This document shows positions 53,896 through 64,000 of a DNA stretch of 64,000 nt, one piece after another. Source of the DNA: Oxyruncus cristatus (lineage: Eukaryota > Chordata > Aves > Passeriformes > Cotingidae); the NCBI GenBank assembly GCA_013399855.1, contig VXAY01002198.1, forward strand, positions 181,761-245,760, written 5' to 3'. The notes under the pieces are model-generated. The model was not told the DNA's origin. It did not search any database and worked only from the letters and a program-made list of their open reading frames with translations. The stretch's first letter is position 1. Every line of letters begins with the position of its first letter. The translations under genes were made by a program, and so were the position numbers.

Positions 53896-56800
53896 CTGGG
53901 GAAGAGGGGGAAAAAAAGCAGTTTTTACACAGGAAGGGACACTTCCACATAAAATCCTGCTTTTTCCCTCAGGATCTTTCCTGGATCCTTAATCCACACT
54001 TTTAATAGAAACACAGCACTGCCAGAGCCACTCCAGCTCCACAGTTCTGCTCCTGCAAGATGGAGATGAAGCCAGGGAATAGCACAGAGGATTTGTTTAT
54101 GCAAAATATTGGGAATATTCAGGAGGAAAAACTAAAGATAAGCTAAAAAAGTCAACTGTGTGAAGGAACCTGCTGAGGGAAAAGGCAGCTTTCCCTCTTC
54201 CAGGTTCTCCTCGGGGATACTCCGTACTCCTTACCTTGTACACGGGGTCGCAGTCGGCCTCGGTGAGATCCAGGACATAATCCAGGTCTTGCTGGAGGAT
54301 GAAGCAGGTGCCATCCCCTGGAAGGGAGGGACATCAGCCAGTTAGGGAAATGAGCTCTTAATTACAGACAGAATTCCATCGGGAAAGGCTCCGATGGGTC
54401 CCAATGGAGGGACACAAGGCAAAGGGGCAAGAGGACAATTCCCAAAGAGCACAGAGTTCCTTGATTCCATTGCAGGATTTCTCCCAACACAGCACTGGAA
54501 TTACCTTGGCTGGCAATGAATCCATCTCGGTATGGGAGCAGGGAAAGCACCGGCGCTCCCGATTTGTGGATGACCTGGATTGGAGTGCTGGAAAAAGGAG
54601 CAGAAACAAGGGATGAGGGATATTTCCCAGAGCAGCTCTGGCTGCCCCACCCCTGGACTTGTCCAAGGCCGGGTTGGACAGGACTTGGAGCAACCTGGGC
54701 TAGTGGAAGGTGTCCCTGCCCATGGCAGGGGGTGGAATGGGATGAGTTTTAAGGTCCCTTCCAACCCAAACCATTCCACGATTCTCTTCAGGGAACACCA
54801 GTAAAACTCCACAGCTCAGTTCCAGTCCTACACTGGAATGAGGATCGGGATCCTACAAAGATGCTCAGGTGAAGGAAAGGAAGGGGCTGGGGATTTTTTG
54901 GGGGGTGATACTGATGTTAAGAAGTTTTCTACTCAACTTATCTACATTTACTGTGTACTTGGATTATATATATGTATAGATCTGTAAAATAATACAGATG
55001 TTTATATAACATAATATGCACAGTACATTGGCATAACTAATAATTATATAACTATAATACTGAATATAAATAATTAATAAACAATATAGAATGAACAGTA
55101 AAAACAATAAAATAAATAATTATAATTATTATGTAGCATACAGAATTATTCTATAGAGAATATACATAGAATACATACATAATAAAAATTAACATACATT
55201 ATATATTATGTATATATTACACATATATAATATCATGATGTATAATAATATTAATATGTTCTATATAAGTATATTATTATAATTAATAAACAGATATTAA
55301 AAAAGCAATAATCTGCAAGGTAAGGCTATGCCAAGAGGACCCCTGGTCATGGATCAAGATGGAAAAGCTTTCCAGGAACTAAGGAATCTGCCTGGAGCCT
55401 GTAGTCTTTTAGGAGGCACAATTAAGTCACCCACCTGAGCAGCAGGAACCTCTCCAGTGCTTCCCAAGAGAAAGAACTGGCTGCCAGAGGCTCTGCAGCT
55501 CCTGGTGCCATGGGATGCACCCCTTGGAAGTGGGACTGCCTGCCAGCCCCCTCCACCGAGCTCTTTTCCCACCAAACCCTGGTTGTTTAAAGCCTTGCGG
55601 CCCCAGGCACTCACTCACCTTGTGCTCCTCACGTCCAGCTGGTAGATGTTCCCATCCTGAGTCCCTGCCAGGATGTAGGTGCTCGAGAGGAATGTGCAGC
55701 AGTTGAAGGCGTCGGATCCCACGAAGAGGAACAGCTGGAAATTTGGGAACGAACTGAATGTGAACCTCAGTGGGAGACAGAGCTGGGATAACACTGACCA
55801 CTTTACCTGTCTAGGTTTATCCTGGCTCAATTCCTCATCCCAGTGCTCTGGCAATCCCAGATCCTTACCGGTTGCCTGCTCTGCAGTCCCACTCCCTGAA
55901 GCTTTTTGTCCTCCCGGGCCACCAGCAGGATTTTCCCTTCTGTCCCGATCTCACGCTCACCTGGCAAAAGGACAACAGGTCATTCCAGCAACAGATCCTG
56001 ATGGGATCAAATCCTGAGAGTTTGGATCACTCCTGCTGAACTTGGGGCAACATTCCCCCAAATCCCAAGACACCAGGAAAGCTGGTAATAGAGCAGAACT
56101 CAGTTTAATCACCCAAACTGCTCGATAAGGCTCAATTCCTGCCCAGGGCTGGAGTGCTCTGCTCCCTTCCCAAGGGATTCCTGGTGACAAACCTCAGCAG
56201 TTTGGGACAGGGAAGTGAAGGGGAATTTTCAGAGGAAGAGCCTTACTGGGAGGATTTTCAGGCATGCCCAGGTTCAGGGAGTCGTTGGCAGTGCCCACGG
56301 CGATGCCGTTCACGGGGGAGCCACAGTCGGCAATGACACCCAGACAGGCGGATTTCCCGCAGTCCCAGAGCCGGGCAGTGCCATCCCTAGAGCAGGACAC
56401 GACATTCCTGCCCCGATCCACAATGGCAGTGTCCAAAATCCCTGCATGGAAGCAAAGGCTGTGTTCAGACAGACACAAAAAGCACCTCGTTGCCCAAACC
56501 GAACCCAACGCCCCAAGCCACTGCTCCCAGTGACACCAGCCACACACAGGCAAGTTGTGCCTCTGGGAAAAGGTGCCTGTGGAAGGAAGCAGCTCCCAGA
56601 AAACCTTACAAAGCGGGAGCCACCACTTGGCACAAAGGGAAGATATTATCCATCAAATGATCGGCAACACCTCACCTCACTGAGCCGACACCGCACAAAA
56701 TTAATTTGGGCAAAAAACATCCTCGCCTGGCACTCTTAAATGTTCCCAAGTTCATCCCTGGATAATCCCAAAAGCAGCATCCCTGTTATCCAGTTACAGC

Positions 56801-59800
56801 AACACCCAAGGAGCAGCCTCTGCAGGTGCTAAGATCCCCTAACTACTTTATTTTACTGTGGGCTGTCAAATCTGGATGTGAAAAATGACCCAGTGGTTTT
56901 GTAGCAGGGAACAGTCAGATGGTCAGGAGATTTAATTTGACACTTTCCCTACAGAAAGAGTCGTTAAACTTGACAAGGGTAAGCCAAGCAGAGTGACTGC
57001 AGCAGTTTGGGCTGGAGGCATAGGCAGGGAATGAAGTCACCTTGAGAGCCACAGCCAAGGCACTGTCACAACACCCGCCACGGTTTGGGTACAGGACACC
57101 TGTGCCAAAGCCTTTTGAATCCACACAAACAGATTATGGAATTGGAAGGGACCTCCAAGACATTCTAGTTCCAATCACCAAATTGCACTAGGACAATGCC
57201 AGGTTCAGTGTAAGGTGGGTTTTTGAGCTAATCAAGTTTAGGGGTTTATTAATCTCTCTGTCAAGCCCAGCACCTTGTGAGGCAGAAAAGCACACCCACC
57301 CCTCACTTGGACTTGACCCAATTGCTCCAGTTGACATCCCTTGGGAAGGAACCACCAGCCATGAGCAGACAGTGGCCACTGTGCTCTGGGGCAGGCGTAA
57401 ACAGGAGCAGGAAGAGGTGGCTGCCTAAGCACTGGGCCTAAATCCCAAACCCTCCCAGTGGAGGGTCCTGGAAACCAAATCTTCTTTCCAGAGATCACTT
57501 GAGCATCCTCCCAGCTACTCTTGTCCTGCTTTACTCCCTTTAACCAGCACAGGGAGCTGCAAGTCCGTAATAATAAACTGCTGCATGGTTTTCTGAGCAA
57601 GAAAAAAAAAAAAAAACCAAAAAAACGAAACAAAAACCAAAAGGAAGAGGCTCTGGAGCTACTGAAGATGAGCAGGATTATCTGAGAGCAAGCAGGAGGC
57701 ATTCCCAGAGCAGGCAGCAAAGCTCCTGGAAGCAGGATGGAGCTCTGGAGAGCTGAGACTGCTCTGGGGGAGCAGAATCCCTGTGCCTCCACCTCCAGAG
57801 CAAGAGGCTGCTGTGTTGCACCCTCCCTCTTTTTAAATTAATTAATGAAGCAAAACCAGGTTGGAGAGAAGAACAAGTTTTTTTCTCCTACGAACAACTC
57901 CCAACCTTTTTATTCAAGTTCTGGGAGCTTAAAAAATGTAATGGTGAGTGAACATCAGCCCTGGGGTGCAAGGCAAGTCCACACGCAGCAGATGAAGCAT
58001 TTTAAAGGCTCTGTACCTCCTCTGTGACCTTTAAATGTCACTACACAGCTGGCATCCTCTGCTGACCAGATCTTGAGCTGGGCATCCATTCCCCCGCTCA
58101 GAACCACGAGGCCAGATGGGAAAAACCTGCAACAATTCACATCATACACATGGCCTTCCAATAGTCTCTGGAAAAACAAAGAACTGTGTGCTAGTTCCAT
58201 TGTCATCACCTTCACACCAAGCAATCTTGGAGCTGTGACACTGGAAAATATGGAAATCTCACGTGGGCAAGAGGATTAAGCTCAAATCCTCAGGGTTTGT
58301 GTTGCTGGAATGGGCTTGTCTCAACTCGAGGTGGAGAGGTGACACTTTGGGCTTCCCTCTACCAGTTGAGCAGCTAACTATGTAGCAAAGGACACTAAAC
58401 TTGCTTCTAATTACAGGTTAAATGTCTTTATCCTCTGCCAAACAAGGAGCTGAAGGTCAAGCTCCACAAAGAAGCACCTTCACTGGGCAGGCAGATAAGG
58501 CAGGATGTGGTTAATCTAGCACAGAAATATTTTTTAATAATTTCTTTTCTAATAGTCTTCTTTGACAATTTCATTAATAATCTATAATCTCCTTTAATAA
58601 TTTCTTTTTTAATAATCTGCTCTACTGCAGAACAAATTCAGTGTTTGTACCATACCTGCTGCACTCAATCCCTGTTATTCCTAAGCCATTCCATTTTTGC
58701 CCTGGGACTCTGGATCGCTGAGCAACATTTCCCCTTGGGAGAAGACACCCCTCCCAACAGATTTGACTTAAAGCCTCCAAGATGGCAAATCTCAGTAAGA
58801 TTTTCATTCAAAAGTCAGATTTTTCCCAGGGTGTTAACAGCCTGACCAAAGTCAGGGCCAAAGGACGTCAGGAATGTCCCACCCAACACAAAACATCAAA
58901 TCCAGATGCTCTTACTCTTATTTCTCCATTGGCAGCCTGCCAGATTTTCATGGTCCCGTCTGTGCTGGTGGACACACCGAGTCCTCCACTGCTGGAAATG
59001 TCAAGGCAGGTGATCTGCAGGAGGGGAAAAGCACCAAAATTTAGCTTTATAGAGAAATTTCTGCACAAGATCCTACTTCTGTACTGGGGGAGACGCGCTA
59101 AGTACATCATTGCACAGTTCTAGGTGATACTGATAAAGGGTGATTAAAACATAAAGTGCTGACAAAAGATTGTAGCCTTAGTTGCTTAGTAGAGCTAATT
59201 TTCAGATAAAATTAGGATAGGGCCTTGCTTGGTTCTGCTAACTTACAGACAGGATATGGTTAATTCTATAATGAGGACTCTAGCCGGGACAGAAAACCCT
59301 GGAGTTTCAATAAGGAGTTTTGAGGCTTAGAGGGAGAGACTTTGAAGGTTGATAAGGAGGGGCTCTAGGAGAAAGAGGCAAGACGAAACCGGTTTTGAGG
59401 TAACTGGCCAGTGCCAGCTCAGTTCTTAGCCAAGGTAAAAAGTTCAAGTCCGAGGAAGACTTCTTACTTCATCCAAAGACCCCCAAAAGAAGACCCCCGA
59501 GGGGCATTCTGGGGCGGAGTTATAGGAGCGGTGCGTGTTAACGACTCCCCTCCCACTTCCCAGGAATTTGCCGACACAGGTAATGCATATGGAACACGAC
59601 TAATGTGTACGCAACACGACTAATGCATATGTAATATTATATCGCATGAGAGGAGCTGAACAAAGACAATGGGCGGGCATGCTGGGCGGAGATATCCCCC
59701 CATGCACCCGGCGCTGTGAAGAAACATACCTGCTTCGATACTCTCTGGGAGTTCTGGGGTTCGTTTCCGCAAGTCATAGTACCCGAATATTGAAACAACG

Positions 59801-62800
59801 ACATCATGGGTTTGGACACGGAGGGGCTGGAGCGTGGGCAGGGAAGGGAAGGGAGCGGGGAAGGGGCTGGAGCAGCAGGAGCAGCTGAGGGAGCTGGGGG
59901 GGCTCAGCCTGGAGCAAAGGAGGCTCAGGGGGGACCTTCTGGCTCTGCAACTCCCTGACAGGAGGGGGGAGCCGGGGGGGGGTCGGGCTCTGCTCCCAGG
60001 GAACAAGGGACAGGAGGAGAGGGAACGGCCTCAGGCTGGGCCAGGGGAGAGGCAGGTTGGACATCAGGAGGGATTTTTTCATGGGAAGGGTGGTCAGGCC
60101 TTGGCAGGGGCTGCCCAGGGAGGTTTGGAGTGCCCTGCCCTGAAGGTGCCCAAGGAAGGCCTGGCCGTGGCACTCAGTGCTCTGCGCTGGCCGAAAAGGT
60201 GGGGATCGGACACAGGGTGGATGCGATGTAATTGCATTTGCACTGCCATTCTTTAATTGCATTCGTAGTCCGTGCATTGGGAGAAAATGCTGCAGCGGTG
60301 AAATCCCTGGGAGGAACAAGAAATGCTGATCCACGATGGAAAGGGAAGGTTCCAAGCAGACAGGGTTAACTTTTCCACCCGCAAGAGGGGCAGGGCCAGG
60401 ATGAGAGGCGATCCCGCCCCTCCATGCGCGGGCAGGACAAAGAGGAGGCGCGTTTTCCCGCTTTCCCTCCTTCCCGGCCGCATCCCGCGTGTTCGCTCCT
60501 CGTTCCATCCATTGCTGTTCCCAGTGAGTTGTTCTTATCTCAACTCCCGTCCTTTGCCTTTCGTGCCTCCAATTCCCCTCTGCCGCCACTGGCTGGAATT
60601 CGGGAATTCCAGTCCTAAACCACGCCAGCCTAATTCGGGGGCAGGAAGGGTTGGGATAGAACAGACCTGCCCGCAGCGGGTCGGGGACGAGTCGGATCCG
60701 AGCACTGGCTGTATTAGGAACTCGCAATGGATACAGGGTGGCTGCACGTGTTCCTGTGGGTTATGCTCTTCAGCCCTTATTATAAACACCCGTTTGAGCC
60801 CATCCTGAAGTATTACCCCAGAGCAAAGAAAGGGCTCGGCGCTGTTTTGGTGCTCTGCATTGCGATAGTAATTTGTGACGTGACACTCCACGTCCACCAG
60901 TCCAATAATAATCCTGCCCGGTCCGCGGGGAGAACAGGGAAGGGTTATTTTCTCCAGGTTTTCCACCGCGATTACTCCTTCAGGACGCACACAAGAGGTT
61001 TTGAATTGCCTTTCAATGTTATGCAAAACATCCTCGCTTTGCTGTATCTGCCAAGTTTCCTCGGCACGGTCTACAACACGTTTAGAGCCGTGGTCCGCAC
61101 CGTGCTTAGAAAGATAAGGGGATTTTTTAGCAGGGCCTTCCAGGCACTTGTCCCCACGGTGTATAATCAGGAGTGGCAGGGAAGGTGGCAGAAAATCGGC
61201 TGGCTTTTGGAGGATTATTTTCCTTCGGTGCTTTGGAAGTTCACCCCCGAACAACTACAGGACCCTGATAAAATGGCAGAACACTTGAAAGAAAAATGCC
61301 GTGACAATTCCAGAGAGGAGTGACTTATTGCCCTGTGCTGGGCCCTGGCCAGTGCTTACCGGGCACTGCTGGATGCCAGGCAGCTCCCCCGCGGGGAAGG
61401 GAGAACAACAATCACTGCAGCCACTCAGACTGCAGCTGGAGCCCTGCCGGGAGCAGTGCTCCCTGTCCCGAAGAAATCTAAGAGTAAATCAGTGGCCACT
61501 CAGACTGCAACTGAACCCCTGCCAGAAGCAGTTGCCCCTGTCCCGAAGAAATCCAAGAGCAAATCAGTGGCCACTCAAACTGCAGCTGACCCCCTGTTGG
61601 GAGCAGTGGTCCCTGTACAGAAGAAATCCAAGAGCAAATCAGGTCTCCTAGTGAGGCATGAAGAGGAAACAGGGTCCTCAGAAGAAGAGGAGGCAGGGAC
61701 AGTGCTGACCCTGCAGTGCCCATGCCTGGATAGGCTGCGGCATATCCGGAAGTATTTCCGGCGCCAGCTGAACGAGTCGGTGCTGGCCTGGCTGGCCCGG
61801 TGCTGGGCCTTCGGGGCACAGGATATAACACTGGATGGCAGAGAAGCCAGGAGTCTGGGATGCCTGGCCTGGAAAGTGCACATTGATAAGGGGATTGGGA
61901 AGAGGGCAGAACCCCTCAGCCTCTGGAAGAGGCTCCTGTCCAGCGTGAAGGAATTGTATCCTGCCAAGAATGATCTGTTTGCACTCAGGAACGTGTGGTG
62001 GAACCTGGAGGAAGGTCTCCAGTACCTGAGGGAATTGGCTGTGCTGCAGGTGCTCTACGACGAGACTGTGAGGGAGGAGTTCCCCCTGGATCCTGGGAGA
62101 GCCTTCTGTTCGTTCTTCACATGGCACTGGCTCCGAGAAAGCACTCCATGTCTTTACTCCAAGACGTTCCCAGCCATCGGGTGGAGCGCACGGCTCACGG
62201 TGAACAGACTGGTCGCCCGGCTCTGCCAGTACCATGAGGAGCTCTCTCGCCTCGCAGGGGTTAAGCTCCTGCCCTCGAACAGCTTGTTCAAGAACCGTCA
62301 TCGTAATCTCTGCAGAGTATGCTACGAGATGCTAGGAAAAGACATGTGTGAACTGCGGTGTGGGCACGAATTCCACAGGGAATGCATCGAAACGGCGGTC
62401 TTGCAGCTTTCTGGCATCTGCCCCGTCTGCCGCAGCCCCGCTTTCCTTGCCACAGACATCCCTGAGCTTCCTACTTGGAACAACCGCAGCAAACGCAAAG
62501 CCAAACTTTGGATGAGCGGAGCGTTTTAGAAGAGCTCCCGAAGAAAAGCGCTGGAAGAGAGCGAGGTCTCAAAAGAACGGACTGGACTGGTTTCGTAAGG
62601 CTCAGAAATCCAGTGAACAAATGGGAATGAGACCCATGTTTGTGGGGGTGGATGCAGCTGGGAGGGGTGGAATCTGGGCACAATGTAGATGGGGTACAAT
62701 AAGGGGTGGGGATGTCCTGGTTCTGCTGAGGACAGGGTTCAATTTTACAGGGATCCCGGGGGATATTTGGGTGGCACATGTGAGCGTTCTCGTGTGCCCT

Positions 62801-63620
62801 GTCCTATACACTGTTAATTGGTATTTTTGTTTCTGTTAGATTCCTTATTCCACTGCTGTCCCAGTAAATTGTTTGCTGTTATCTAAATCCCTGATCTTTT
62901 GTGCCTCCAATTCCCCTCTTCATCCATTGGGAACACTAAATTAGGGAATACCGTTCCTAAACCACGACAAGATCACAGTTCAATGTCCATTCCAACCCTG
63001 CACACACCAGTCCACGCTCCAGGCCCCACCCAGCATGAGGACACCACTGTCAGGGATGTGTTGTGAAGAGTTCCGTGTCACCTCCAGGGATTCCCCTCTC
63101 ACCTCACAGGATACTCACACTTTTCTGATGAATCCTAGAAAAACTTGTGTATGGGGCCAGGAACTTTGTGGACACATTTTCGTGAGGACAAGAAATGAGG
63201 ATGCTTTTCTAAGGGAGGAAAGAGAGGGGGAAAAAAAGGAATTAGAGGTGCTGTTGGTCCTGCTGAGGAGGAGCTGTGACTCGGAGCCAGCTGTGGGATC
63301 CCAGAGCCCGGAAACTCATGGAAGGGCCAGTGCTGGGCTGGTCTCCCAAGGATGCAGGTGGGAAGGGACACACAGCCCCATCCCTGTGGCATGTCCCAGA
63401 GCATCTCCAGGGATGTGCCCAGCGGGAGGTTGGGATGGCTGGACAGGACCCTGCAGTGCGGCAGCTTTGGGCTGTCAGTGTCCCCCCCTTTCTGTCACCC
63501 CCTCCAGCACTGGCACCTTGGTGACTTCCTGGACCAGGAATCCCTCGGAGGCTGCGATGTCCGGGATGCCCTCGGAGCTGAGCCCGCGGCGGGTGACACT
63601 GCCATACAGGGTGGGCTTCC
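53818..63620 (-). CDS. PAAF1: PAAF1, proteasomal ATPase-associated factor 1, exons 2-11 (partial, exon 1 off the right edge)
   Basis: PAAF1 is a WD40 protein, related to yeast Rpn14, that binds the ATPase ring of the 19S proteasome regulator and controls its assembly with the 20S core. Exons on minus: 63620-63517, 63208-63119, 59014-58916, 58167-58017, 56441-56247, 55960-55869, 55734-55619, 54587-54505, 54317-54235, 53895-53818. All GT-AG and in phase, giving 362 residues and TAA. The human protein has 392 residues with about 30 from exon 1, so nothing beyond exon 1 is missing. WD-type blades are visible at GTMKIW, AQLKIW, GTARLW and GNIYQLD. I searched 63,621-64,000 for exon 1 and see only a repeat array there. 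The intron between the second and third visible exons holds three antisense mobile elements, including an LTR-flanked two-ORF element, but no exon is damaged. The 3' end lies roughly 100-200 bp from the DNAJB13 promoter. Confidence 0.96.
54235..54317 (-). CDS. PAAF1: PAAF1 exon 10
   Basis: Encodes [15 protein letters not shown]...DCDPVYK. Enters with two bases of a split Gly codon and leaves in phase 0. Donor gtaagg. Confidence 0.94.
54505..54587 (-). CDS. PAAF1: PAAF1 exon 9
   Basis: Encodes [26 protein letters not shown], one WD blade. Acceptor ttccag, donor gtaatt. Confidence 0.94.
54640..54790 (+). mobile_element. CR1 LINE 3' end in PAAF1 intron
   Basis: Forward CR1 terminus: gccgggttggacaggacttg, gagcaacctgggctagtgga, ggtgtccctgcccatggcag, ggtcccttccaacccaaacc, attccacgattc. 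About 150 bp, antisense to PAAF1. Confidence 0.92.
54950..55310. repeat. Long AT-rich tract in PAAF1 intron
   Basis: About 350 bp almost free of G and C, made of tatata, ataata and taatta words. It is probably an expanded and decayed TA-type microsatellite. Confidence 0.85.
55619..55734 (-). CDS. PAAF1: PAAF1 exon 8
   Basis: Encodes [16 protein letters not shown]...[17 protein letters not shown]. Phase 0 acceptor (atttccag), donor AG|gtgagt. Confidence 0.96.
55869..55960 (-). CDS. PAAF1: PAAF1 exon 7
   Basis: Encodes [22 protein letters not shown] and GLQSRQ. The first base of the exon completes a Ser codon split with exon 6. Donor gtaagg. Confidence 0.95.
56247..56441 (-). CDS. PAAF1: PAAF1 exon 6
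   Basis: 195 bp encoding [27 protein letters not shown] and the [14 protein letters not shown] region, a WD blade. Acceptor catgcag, donor CCCA|gtaagg. Confidence 0.96.
57130..57200 (-). mobile_element. Possible CR1 tail in PAAF1 intron
   Basis: attatggaattggaagggac followed by ctccaagacattctagttcc and caatcaccaaattgcactag resembles the inverted 3' end of a CR1. Short and decayed. Confidence 0.55.
57602..57642. repeat. A-rich tract
   Basis: Poly-A followed by accaaaaaaacgaaacaaaa-type words inside a PAAF1 intron. Confidence 0.8.
58017..58167 (-). CDS. PAAF1: PAAF1 exon 5
   Basis: 151 bp encoding [36 protein letters not shown] and [10 protein letters not shown]: a complete WD40 repeat with its GH and W landmarks. 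Acceptor ttttccag, donor GGAG|gtacag. Confidence 0.96.
58916..59014 (-). CDS. PAAF1: PAAF1 exon 4
   Basis: 99 bp, 33 codons in phase 0: [30 protein letters not shown]. Acceptor ctcctgcag, donor gtaaga. Confidence 0.96.
59171..59803 (+). mobile_element. Solo LTR in PAAF1 intron (same family as 16.7 kb)
   Basis: Begins tgtagccttagttgc and ends about gaaacaacgaca. It aligns in order with 16,694-17,277, including the tandem taatgcatatg units (here at about 59,581-59,635) and gctgaacaaag. It is antisense to PAAF1. It does not resemble the LTRs of the neighbouring two-ORF element. I see no clear target-site duplication. A CR1 follows directly. Confidence 0.8.
59812..60232 (+). mobile_element. CR1 LINE 3' fragment in PAAF1 intron
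   Basis: Forward CR1: ggagctgggggggctcagcc, tggagcaaaggaggctcagg, ggttggacatcaggagggat, ggtcaggccttggcaggggc, tgcccagggaggtttggagt, ending in ggcactcagtgctctgcgct and gatcggacacagggtgg. It lacks the usual final tail and lies between the solo LTR and the two-ORF element. Confidence 0.9.
60324..60627 (+). repeat. 5' LTR of the two-ORF element
   Basis: Right end (cctaaaccacgcca) is firm from comparison with the 3' copy; left end is estimated from where similarity to the 3' LTR start fades. CpG-rich in its middle (60,410-60,500), unlike the 3' copy. Confidence 0.6.
60727..61323 (+). CDS. ORF1 of the LTR element: 198-residue putative membrane protein
   Basis: ATG at 60,727 lies in a good initiation context (G at -3, G at +4) about 100 bp past the 5' LTR. 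The protein begins with a hydrophobic, aromatic stretch, then has a clear membrane-spanning segment at about residues 36-56 ([19 protein letters not shown]). A basic central part follows (about 120-150, [16 protein letters not shown]), then a charged C-terminus. I do not recognise a family. It ends at TGA 61,321-61,323; the frame stays open for another 401 codons. It may be a leader fused by readthrough to the Gag-like part, an independent accessory protein, or an older fusion now broken by a stop. Confidence 0.6.
   Translation: MDTGWLHVFLWVMLFSPYYKHPFEPILKYYPRAKKGLGAVLVLCIAIVICDVTLHVHQSNNNPARSAGRTGKGYFLQVFHRDYSFRTHTRGFELPFNVMQNILALLYLPSFLGTVYNTFRAVVRTVLRKIRGFFSRAFQALVPTVYNQEWQGRWQKIGWLLEDYFPSVLWKFTPEQLQDPDKMAEHLKEKCRDNSREE
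61324..62529 (+). CDS. ORF2 of the LTR element: Gag-like protein with C-terminal RING-H2 finger, no own ATG
   Basis: In frame with ORF1 and open from the codon after its TGA to TAG at 62,527-62,529. Order: about 30 residues of hydrophobic/arginine character, three 25-residue repeats (61,417-61,641), an acidic linker, a region of about 190 residues (61,720-62,270) that I judge related to the Gag-like ORFs of avian endogenous retroviruses, a short linker and a RING-H2 finger (62,311-62,430). The RING ligands are in order C-x2-C-x12-C-x-H-x2-H-x2-C-x10-C-x2-C, all present, so zinc binding and E3 ubiquitin-ligase activity are plausible. A basic tail (SKRKAK) follows. The usual Gag CCHC knuckle is absent. 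The first in-frame ATG is inside the RING, so translation would need readthrough of the TGA, a non-AUG start (a GTG stands at 61,456) or splicing. Similarity to Gag is from memory of the family, not a search. Confidence 0.65.
   Translation, partial: LIALCWALASAYRALLDARQLPRGEGRTTITAATQTAAGALPGAVLPVPKKSKSKSVATQTATEPLPEAVAPVPKKSKSKSVATQTAADPLLGAVVPVQKKSKSKSGLLVRHEEETGSSEEEEAGTVLTLQCPCLDRLRHIRKYFRRQLNESVLAWLARCWAFGAQDITLDGREARSLGCLAWKVHIDKGIGKRAEPLSLWKRLLSSVKELYPAKNDLFALRNVWWNLEEGLQYLRELAVLQVLYDETVREEFPLDPGRAFCSFFTWHWLRESTPCLYSKTFPAIGWSARLTVNRLVARLCQYHEELSRLAGVKLLPSNSLFKNRHRNLCRVCYEMLGKDMCELRCGHEFHRECIETAVLQLSGICPVCRSPAFLATDIPELPTWNNRSKRKAKLWMSGAF
61417..61641 (+). repeat. Three tandem 75-bp coding repeats
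   Basis: Units at 61,417-61,491, 61,492-61,566 and 61,567-61,641. Each encodes 25 residues with an ATQTA core near the start and a KKSKSKS basic end. Because the unit is a multiple of three, frame is kept. Units 2 and 3 are the most alike. Confidence 0.92.
62311..62430 (+). other. RING-H2 zinc-binding domain coding segment
   Basis: All eight ligands (C3H2C3) are present with canonical spacing, including the CGHEFH centre and CPVC end. A Pro follows the seventh Cys as in most active RING E3 ligases. This differs from retroviral nucleocapsid knuckles, which are CCHC. Confidence 0.9.
62701..62712 (+). promoter_or_regulatory. Polypurine tract of the LTR element
   Basis: aaggggtgggga, all purine but one base, directly abuts the 3' LTR start. 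This is the position and composition of the plus-strand primer of retroviruses. Confidence 0.6.
62713..62969 (+). repeat. 3' LTR of the two-ORF element
   Basis: Starts tgtcctggttc after the purine tract and ends accacgaca. About 257 bp. Shares its last 120 bp with the 5' copy at visibly reduced identity, and a weaker match near its start. Confidence 0.65.
63119..63208 (-). CDS. PAAF1: PAAF1 exon 3
   Basis: 90 bp, 30 codons in phase 0, encoding [24 protein letters not shown]. Acceptor cctcccttag, donor gtgagt. It lies only about 150 bp from the 3' LTR of the antisense element. Confidence 0.95.
63517..63620 (-). CDS. PAAF1: PAAF1 exon 2
   Basis: 104 bp; two bases complete a Gly codon from exon 1, then 34 codons including [12 protein letters not shown] and [12 protein letters not shown]. 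Acceptor tttcccccag; donor AAG|gtgcca is weak, but phase and similarity support it. Confidence 0.93.
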
Positions 63621-63639
63621 CTGGGGGAAAAGGGGCAGC

Positions 63640-64000
63640 CCTGAGCCCCACAGCACAGAGCCCCTCAGCCCACCCTCCCTGATGCACAGGGACCCAAACC
63701 CCCCCAGCCCCCCCTAATCCACAGGGATCCCAAACACTCCCAGCCCTTCCTTAGCCACAGGGACCCCAAACAACTCCAACCCCTCCTACCCCACACAGAC
63801 CCCACACGGTCCCCAAACACCAACAACCCTTCCTAATTCAGGGGTATCCCCCCATAGTCCCCTTCCCCTCCTAACCCACAGGGACCCTAAAATGAGCCCA
63901 GTAATGACAGGAACCCACCTCCTCTTCAACCACAGAGACCCCCCCAGCCACCCGCATTCCCTCCTCACCCAGAGGGTCCCCAAATGCTCCCCCCTCCCCC
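63640..64000. repeat. Degenerate C-rich minisatellite in PAAF1 intron 1
   Basis: Repeated units of roughly 45-55 bp built on the pattern cacagggaccccaaac...ccagcccctcctaa, running to the edge of the window. It explains the long proline-rich and glycine-rich open frames here. No exon 1 of PAAF1 is visible in it. Confidence 0.8.

Follow-up and report, generated by a model that had tools for sequence, protein, structure and literature searches.

What is a RING-H2 finger doing at the end of a retroviral Gag-like protein, in the place where a nucleocapsid would be expected? The question is raised by a locus in the 1.04 Gb genome of the passerine bird Oxyruncus cristatus. The stretch of DNA analysed, hereafter the window, comprises 64,000 nucleotides of assembly GCA_013399855.1 (contig VXAY01002198.1, positions 181,761 to 245,760, forward strand), and all coordinates are window positions. 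A single frame with one TGA inside it runs on the forward strand from 60727 to 62529, and its product would have a hydrophobic N-terminus, a matrix-like stretch, a tandem linker, a capsid-like domain and a C-terminal RING. Here, we compared this frame with its relatives in databases and in its own genome. The locus is best explained, with a probability of roughly 0.8, as a co-opted Gag-RING host gene of passerines.

Results

The first open reading frame (ORF), ORF1, has 198 codons (60727-61320). It is closed by the TGA at 61321-61323, after which the same frame stays open for 401 codons (61324-62526) and forms ORF2. The two in-frame ORFs described by an earlier, sequence-only reading of this stretch are thus present. 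However, they are better described as one gene broken once, since Pitangus sulphuratus has an uninterrupted Gag + RING protein of 571 amino acid residues (P0001) that matches both. The identity between P0001 and the window is 86% over ORF1 (170/198, no gap) and 78% over ORF2 (310/397, two gaps in the linker), and 151 of 175 residues of the capsid-like (CA) domain are identical. The Pitangus linker is shorter than that of the window, with one gap of 25 residues and one of a single residue. No frameshift-like stretch is seen in the protein alignment of either ORF, and the hydrophobic N-terminus is found in both proteins.

The fusion is present well beyond these two birds. Among 16 homologues, three carry the RING, namely P0001, P0003 (Climacteris) and P0008 (Emberiza), and the other 13 are RING-less (10 from named birds, 3 unnamed). 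A taxonomy check of two species placed Pitangus and Climacteris both in the Passeriformes. A profile search for capsid plus RING gave 6685 candidates and 73 matches, 67 of which are Gag + RING records from 67 different species, presumably all oscine passerines. These records have 168-273 residues and are all marked as partial; one is listed per species, and each represents a cluster of 1-5 sequences. The remaining matches are two more Gag + RING records (P0083 and P0084), two fragments of RING-less Gags (P0085 and P0086), a TTC3-family protein (P0087) and an unrelated RING (P0088). A search with residues 300-571 of P0001 returned only P0001 itself and a RING-less protein of Colius, so that few records are of the suboscine type, Pitangus being the one besides the window. 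The sequence-only reading had named a case that would count against it, a RING lying beside the Gag-like sequence in this one copy only. The same order of parts in P0001 and in 67 other species disposes of that case. A chance neighbourhood of an endogenous retrovirus (ERV) Gag remnant and an unrelated RING fragment, for which we found nothing, is refuted by the same order and by the similar junction in the window, P0003 and P0008, and we give it practically no weight.

A tree and an alignment were made with 65 of the 67 Gag + RING records, leaving out the short P0081 and P0082 as well as P0012, P0015, P0016 and P0083-P0088. In the resulting tree of 78 rows, based on the capsid columns, the window and Pitangus are sisters (support 100) and the 65 oscine rows form one clade (99), while the RING-less Gags lie on one side of a branch with a support of 95. 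A careful tree of 34 rows gave the same main groups (100/95). The order of the oscine rows matches what we take to be the known groups: bowerbird and treecreeper come first, the honeyeater allies fall together, and the sylvioids and passeroids form blocks. Inheritance of the oscine fusion looks vertical because of this order, although 28 of the 75 inner branches are weak. Approximately unbiased (AU) tests, which used 21 of the 65 oscine rows chosen to spread over the tree, gave p values of 0.028, 0.157 and 0.052 for three alternatives with two origins. With these values, and with the two fusion clades meeting as long branches, a single origin of the fusion is favoured, not proven; it gains further support from the window, P0003 and P0008, in which the RING is of the same type, the spacing between capsid and RING is similar and residues of the tail are shared.

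The region in front of the RING had been read as Gag-like, and its homology to proteins in the gag position of ERVs bears this out. Neither the window ORFs nor the scanned relatives had a match to a Gag model of Pfam, and the Gag identity follows from the relatives themselves: the 13 RING-less homologues, a protein of Hirundo (P0013) whose capsid is followed by a weak match to a retroviral protease (RVP 0.0019, below the cut-off), and a RING-less relative in the same genome, L004, with a reverse-transcriptase remnant downstream (RVT_1 3.1e-6, 27.5 bits, cut-off 29.6). A CCHC knuckle had no Pfam match in ORF2 or P0001. It had none in the RING-less P0002, P0017 and P0012 either, so that its lack is not diagnostic in this Gag lineage. 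An Env-like assignment of ORF1 was dropped because the N-terminal part of P0002 aligns, at 31% identity, with residues 45-197 of ORF1. Two other matches of ORF1, to Pfam F-box_4 (E 0.011; 16 bits, cut-off 32) and to an NCBIfam model of a type III effector (E 0.057; 12.5 bits, cut-off 75), were attributed to chance. From its conservation we infer that the stretch 61165-61400 corresponds to a matrix. As a separate observation, the RING-less P0002, P0012, P0015 and P0017 have 2-5 predicted membrane-spanning stretches near the N-terminus, which is not usual in a Gag protein; in P0006 and P0007, whose sequences begin later, there are 0 and 1, respectively.

The domain at 61729-62253 is predicted to be capsid-like. 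The AlphaFold2 model of this domain has block means that are mostly above 90, and among the top 8 structural rows of VIA-align, seven are retroviral (foamy, HTLV) or Arc capsids, with the C-lobe of Arc (6tn7) in third place. Foldseek found no significant match for the domain in the PDB, and nothing significant among viral models, where the best row was a walleye retrovirus Gag (E 0.23). There were no matches of a Gag-only profile to PDB sequences, and none of the RT-like (reverse-transcriptase-like) fragment of L004 to the PDB at 0.01. The fusion profile gave 70 pattern matches in viral contigs, of which none was confirmed.

The complete C3H2C3 RING of the sequence-only reading was recovered at about 62311-62433, with all eight ligands and two Pfam models above their cut-offs (zf-C3HC4_2, 6.2e-8; zf-RING_2, 7.3e-7). 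Each of the eight zinc ligands is kept in 66 or 67 of the 67 fusion rows, P0075 having one His replaced. Over the 65 oscine rows, the RING has the highest mean pairwise identity (0.895), followed by the tail (0.714) and the capsid (0.666). The RING residues that usually contact the ubiquitin-conjugating enzyme (E2) are Ile/Val, Trp, Pro and Arg; in the 65 oscine rows, these positions hold I in 63, W in 64, P in 65 and R in 63.

The 67 Gag + RING records bear the automatic names 'DZIP3', 'HRD1', 'HRD1A' or 'HRD1B ligase'. The Gag-RING gene appears to be misannotated as 'DZIP3 ligase' and 'HRD1 ligase' in P0003, P0008 and P0018-P0082. The TTC3-family protein P0087, from Junco, matches TTC3_9th in Pfam (1.1e-18), with a second TTC3 domain just below the cut-off, and it ends in a RING and a tail. 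In the RING and tail columns, P0003 is identical to it at 45 of 67 positions, P0046 at 47 of 67 and the window at 32 of 57, and the similarity to the fusions runs past the RING into a PELPxWN-like stretch. The helical domains of TTC3 had no Pfam match in P0001, P0003, P0028 or the window ORFs. Because the scanned fusions lack these domains and their RING and tail match P0087, the database names reflect the captured finger and not the gene. By this comparison, the gene is not the DZIP3 that the names suggest but encodes a Gag protein whose RING is TTC3-like. The donor of the RING would be a TTC3/DZIP3-type E3 ubiquitin ligase, the candidates being TTC3, DZIP3 or a sister gene.

In the genome of the window species, 103 of 176 candidates from a search with ORF2 were scored, and the counts are lower bounds. 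There are at least 99 matches, and among the 99 listed only that of the window itself reaches through the RING. Of the 98 other listed matches, none goes beyond residue 332 of the 401, where the RING is just beginning. The one that ranks second by E-value has 47% identity, and 85 of the 98 contain internal stops, as counted from the table of matches. A RING-like pattern was seen in L001 and in none of L002-L008. Separately, the L004 locus (G000:C1505:951558-952397, minus strand) has a stop-free RING-less Gag frame of 577 codons that is 34% identical to ORF2, and it may be young or itself conserved.

The gene is flanked by two repeats, 60490-60627 and 62834-62969, which are identical in 106 of 125 ungapped columns (85%), with a Kimura two-parameter (K2P) distance of 0.17 and 24 gap columns in 149. 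Their alignment score is 117, compared with a maximum of 62 in 200 shuffles, and both end at a common CCTAAACCACGnCA. A BLAST of 60250-63000 against the window found, besides this pair, only the 75-bp tandem repeats of the element itself. The colinear alignment of the putative U3 parts (60278-60416 and 62643-62792) scores 40, which is inside the shuffle range (maximum 51). The claim of paired, diverged long terminal repeats (LTRs) therefore holds for the R/U5-like part and not for U3, and the support for LTR remnants is good but not complete. The polypurine tract that had also been claimed was not recovered: the longest purine run in 62527-62850 is 9 nucleotides, a length equalled in 62% of 500 shuffles. 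A target-site duplication of 4-6 bases was searched for in 60180-60480 and was not found. Both features could have been lost from an old element.

These flanks bear on two other histories. In the first, a retrovirus-like element would have formed the fusion by transducing a host gene, as gag-oncogene viruses do, and would have been mobile before or during its fixation, so that oscines and suboscines carry separate insertions. The window copy does still lie between R/U5-like repeats, and at the substitution rates of birds, 2-3.5e-9 per site and year, their distance corresponds very roughly to 24-43 million years, which may be younger than the split of oscines and suboscines. However, this history is unlikely given a single RING-bearing copy among the 99 matches listed, the listing of one record for each species, the agreement of the oscine tree with the passerine groups named above, and flanks in which neither a polypurine tract nor a target-site duplication was found. 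In the second, the locus would be a non-autonomous LTR element packaged by a helper virus, as the sequence-only reading had also proposed. Apart from the repeats at both ends, the evidence speaks against it: the repeats are worn, the two insertion features just named were not found in the searched flanks, one copy among those listed has a RING, and inheritance is apparently vertical. We consider it very improbable. The broader proposal of that reading, a non-autonomous or co-opted element with a RING in place of the nucleocapsid, is thus retained in its co-opted form, which suits the many species and the vertical descent; the non-autonomous form is disfavoured by the number of listed copies and the searched flanks.

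If the repeats date the insertion, each copy has accumulated about 0.085 substitutions per site. Neutral decay of both frames simulated on this basis gives a mean of 5.3-5.8 new stops, with one stop or none in about 2.6% of 2000 runs; at 0.05 per site the latter share is 12-15%. The few stops and the unshifted frame point to past constraint, as judged by simulated stops, a measure distinct from the ratio of nonsynonymous to synonymous substitution rates (dN/dS).

The features of the locus and its surroundings are listed in Table 1. The element lies antisense within an intron of a WD40-repeat gene, between the exons at about 63119-63208 and 58916-59014. We take this gene to be PAAF1, which encodes a proteasome-associated factor; the link with the ubiquitin theme is possibly a coincidence. 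Just upstream of the element, the segment 59400-60170 appears by eye to hold a further LTR-type sequence and, behind it, a 3' end of CR1-like type. A 36-bp tandem array of about 3.8 copies lies at 63669-63804, between the WD40 exon 63517-63620 and the end of the window. Rfam gave no matches within 55000-64000.

Table 1 Features of the Gag-RING locus and of the WD40-repeat gene around it.
Feature	Position	Strand	Basis
5' LTR remnant (R/U5-like)	60490..60627	+	pairs with 62834-62969; U3 from ~60278 possible
ORF1 with TGA, N-terminal part of Gag-like protein	60727..61323	+	86% identity to P0001 residues 1-198
Predicted membrane-spanning stretch, ORF1 residues 36-54	60832..60888	+	Kyte-Doolittle mean 2.58, 19 residues
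Matrix-like stretch spanning the TGA	61165..61400	+	conserved with RING-less P0002, P0004, P0006, P0007, P0010, P0012
ORF2 frame with TAG: linker, capsid-like domain, RING, tail	61324..62529	+	
Linker, 75-bp in-frame tandem repeat, 3 copies	61420..61642	+	
Capsid-like (CA) domain	61729..62253	+	AlphaFold2 block means mostly >90; VIA-align rows
RING-H2 finger (C3H2C3)	62311..62433	+	Pfam; ligand columns kept in 66 or 67/67 fusion rows
Post-RING tail, partly common to TTC3-family protein and oscine fusions	62434..62526	+	
3' LTR remnant (R/U5-like)	62834..62969	+	pairs with 60490-60627
WD40-repeat host gene exon	63517..63620	-	AG/GT-bounded open stretch
Next exon, same WD40 gene	63119..63208	-	ends read by eye
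Following exon, same WD40 gene	58916..59014	-	element in intron between 63119-63208 and this exon
Further exon, WD40 gene	56200-56490	-	matches WD40 proteins

Discussion

Some observations weigh against a conserved and working Gag-RING gene. The window copy has an in-frame TGA, and both the window and Pitangus P0001 have Ala in place of the conserved RING Trp. The suboscine-type protein may for this reason bind E2 poorly, and the window copy, with its stop and without the Trp, may be weakened or decaying. The stop and the missing Trp are also what would be expected if the gene worked in oscines alone and its copy in the window species were a decaying pseudogene. On the other side, the Pitangus record is uninterrupted, both birds keep the eight ligands of the RING and the Arg that follows its last Cys, and the identity between them is as high in ORF1 as in the capsid (86%; 170/198 and 151/175). 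Decay confined to the window species' side is a serious contender, although we rate its chances at a little short of even.

More specifically, the passerine host gene may have come about when the 3' part of an ERV gag was replaced with a TTC3/DZIP3-type RING and tail, and in this genome it would still be flanked by worn LTR-like remnants. On balance we lean towards this account. The hydrophobic N-terminus may bring the protein to membranes, and the capsid-like domain may let it assemble, with related Gag proteins or with further copies of itself, into lattices or oligomers. The RING would then recruit an E2, so that Gag partners or the whole assembly would be ubiquitinated and degraded. The net effect would be that of a dominant-negative, Gag-targeting E3. 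In the lineage of the window, with one break of the frame and no RING Trp, this activity is perhaps reduced or changed.

That the protein acts on Gag is put forward tentatively, as somewhat less than an even chance. It may instead be a host E3 whose cellular role is unrelated to retroviruses, the Gag part being an oligomerisation scaffold only. The strongly conserved RING next to a faster capsid and the hydrophobic N-terminus of both suboscine-type proteins would suit such a role, and co-opted Gags with cellular roles are known, such as Arc and the RTL genes. However, a capsid-like domain and a RING amid at least 98 related Gag-like stretches suit a Gag-directed role, which is an argument and not a test. 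We regard a purely cellular scaffold as possible, with odds of the same low order as action on Gag. In the most far-reaching version of the Gag-directed reading, retroviral capture of a TTC3-like 3' end, once and before the oscine/suboscine split, would have put the RING in the place of the nucleocapsid. The product would be a passerine-wide restriction factor that enters lattices of Gag, be it endogenous or incoming, and marks them for destruction. This version must be called doubtful.

If the Gag-directed reading is true, a whole order of birds carries an unrecognised gene that welds viral assembly to the host machinery of protein degradation. It would furthermore provide a testable case of Gag-guided ubiquitination with dozens of natural variants, in which oscine RINGs with the Trp can be set against suboscine-type RINGs without it.

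Comparison with known systems

TRIM5alpha and TRIM-Cyp are restriction factors that combine a RING E3 with a module directed at the retroviral capsid. The likeness is that in the fusion, too, a RING E3 would be joined to a capsid-directed module. However, this module is itself Gag/capsid-like, and the RING is C-terminal and of the TTC3-like type; a B-box or SPRY domain had no Pfam match in the window ORFs or the scanned fusions. Fv1, one of several restriction factors co-opted from gag, is a host gene made from an ERV gag, as the fusion probably is. Fv1 is not known to have an enzymatic finger. Arc and the RTL/SIRH genes derive from Metaviridae; their domesticated capsid fold has a predicted counterpart in the fusion, but they are not known to have a RING. 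In transduced oncogene viruses of the Gag-Cbl type, retroviral transduction joined gag to the gene of a host RING protein. Gag and a host RING are thus joined in both cases, whereas the passerine fusion is in the germ line and extends across many species.

The nearest bird precedent found is OVEX1, an ERV locus that was kept by vertical descent and has an in-frame stop, and whose R-like repeats are degenerate, with 73% identity (PMC2717909). OVEX1 keeps Gag, Pro-Pol and a third ORF, and its description does not contain the word RING (PMC2717909). In CGIN1/NYNRIN, a retroviral RNase H/integrase part is joined to KH and NYN domains, and the consulted parts of its description mention no Gag or RING; it resembles the fusion as a host gene joined to a retroviral segment, but the segments differ (PMC7226360). 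A literature search at the level of titles and abstracts found no description of a bird Gag-RING gene. Co-opted gag genes and RING-based restriction are each known separately, and, as far as we have seen at that level, their union in one conserved gene is new.
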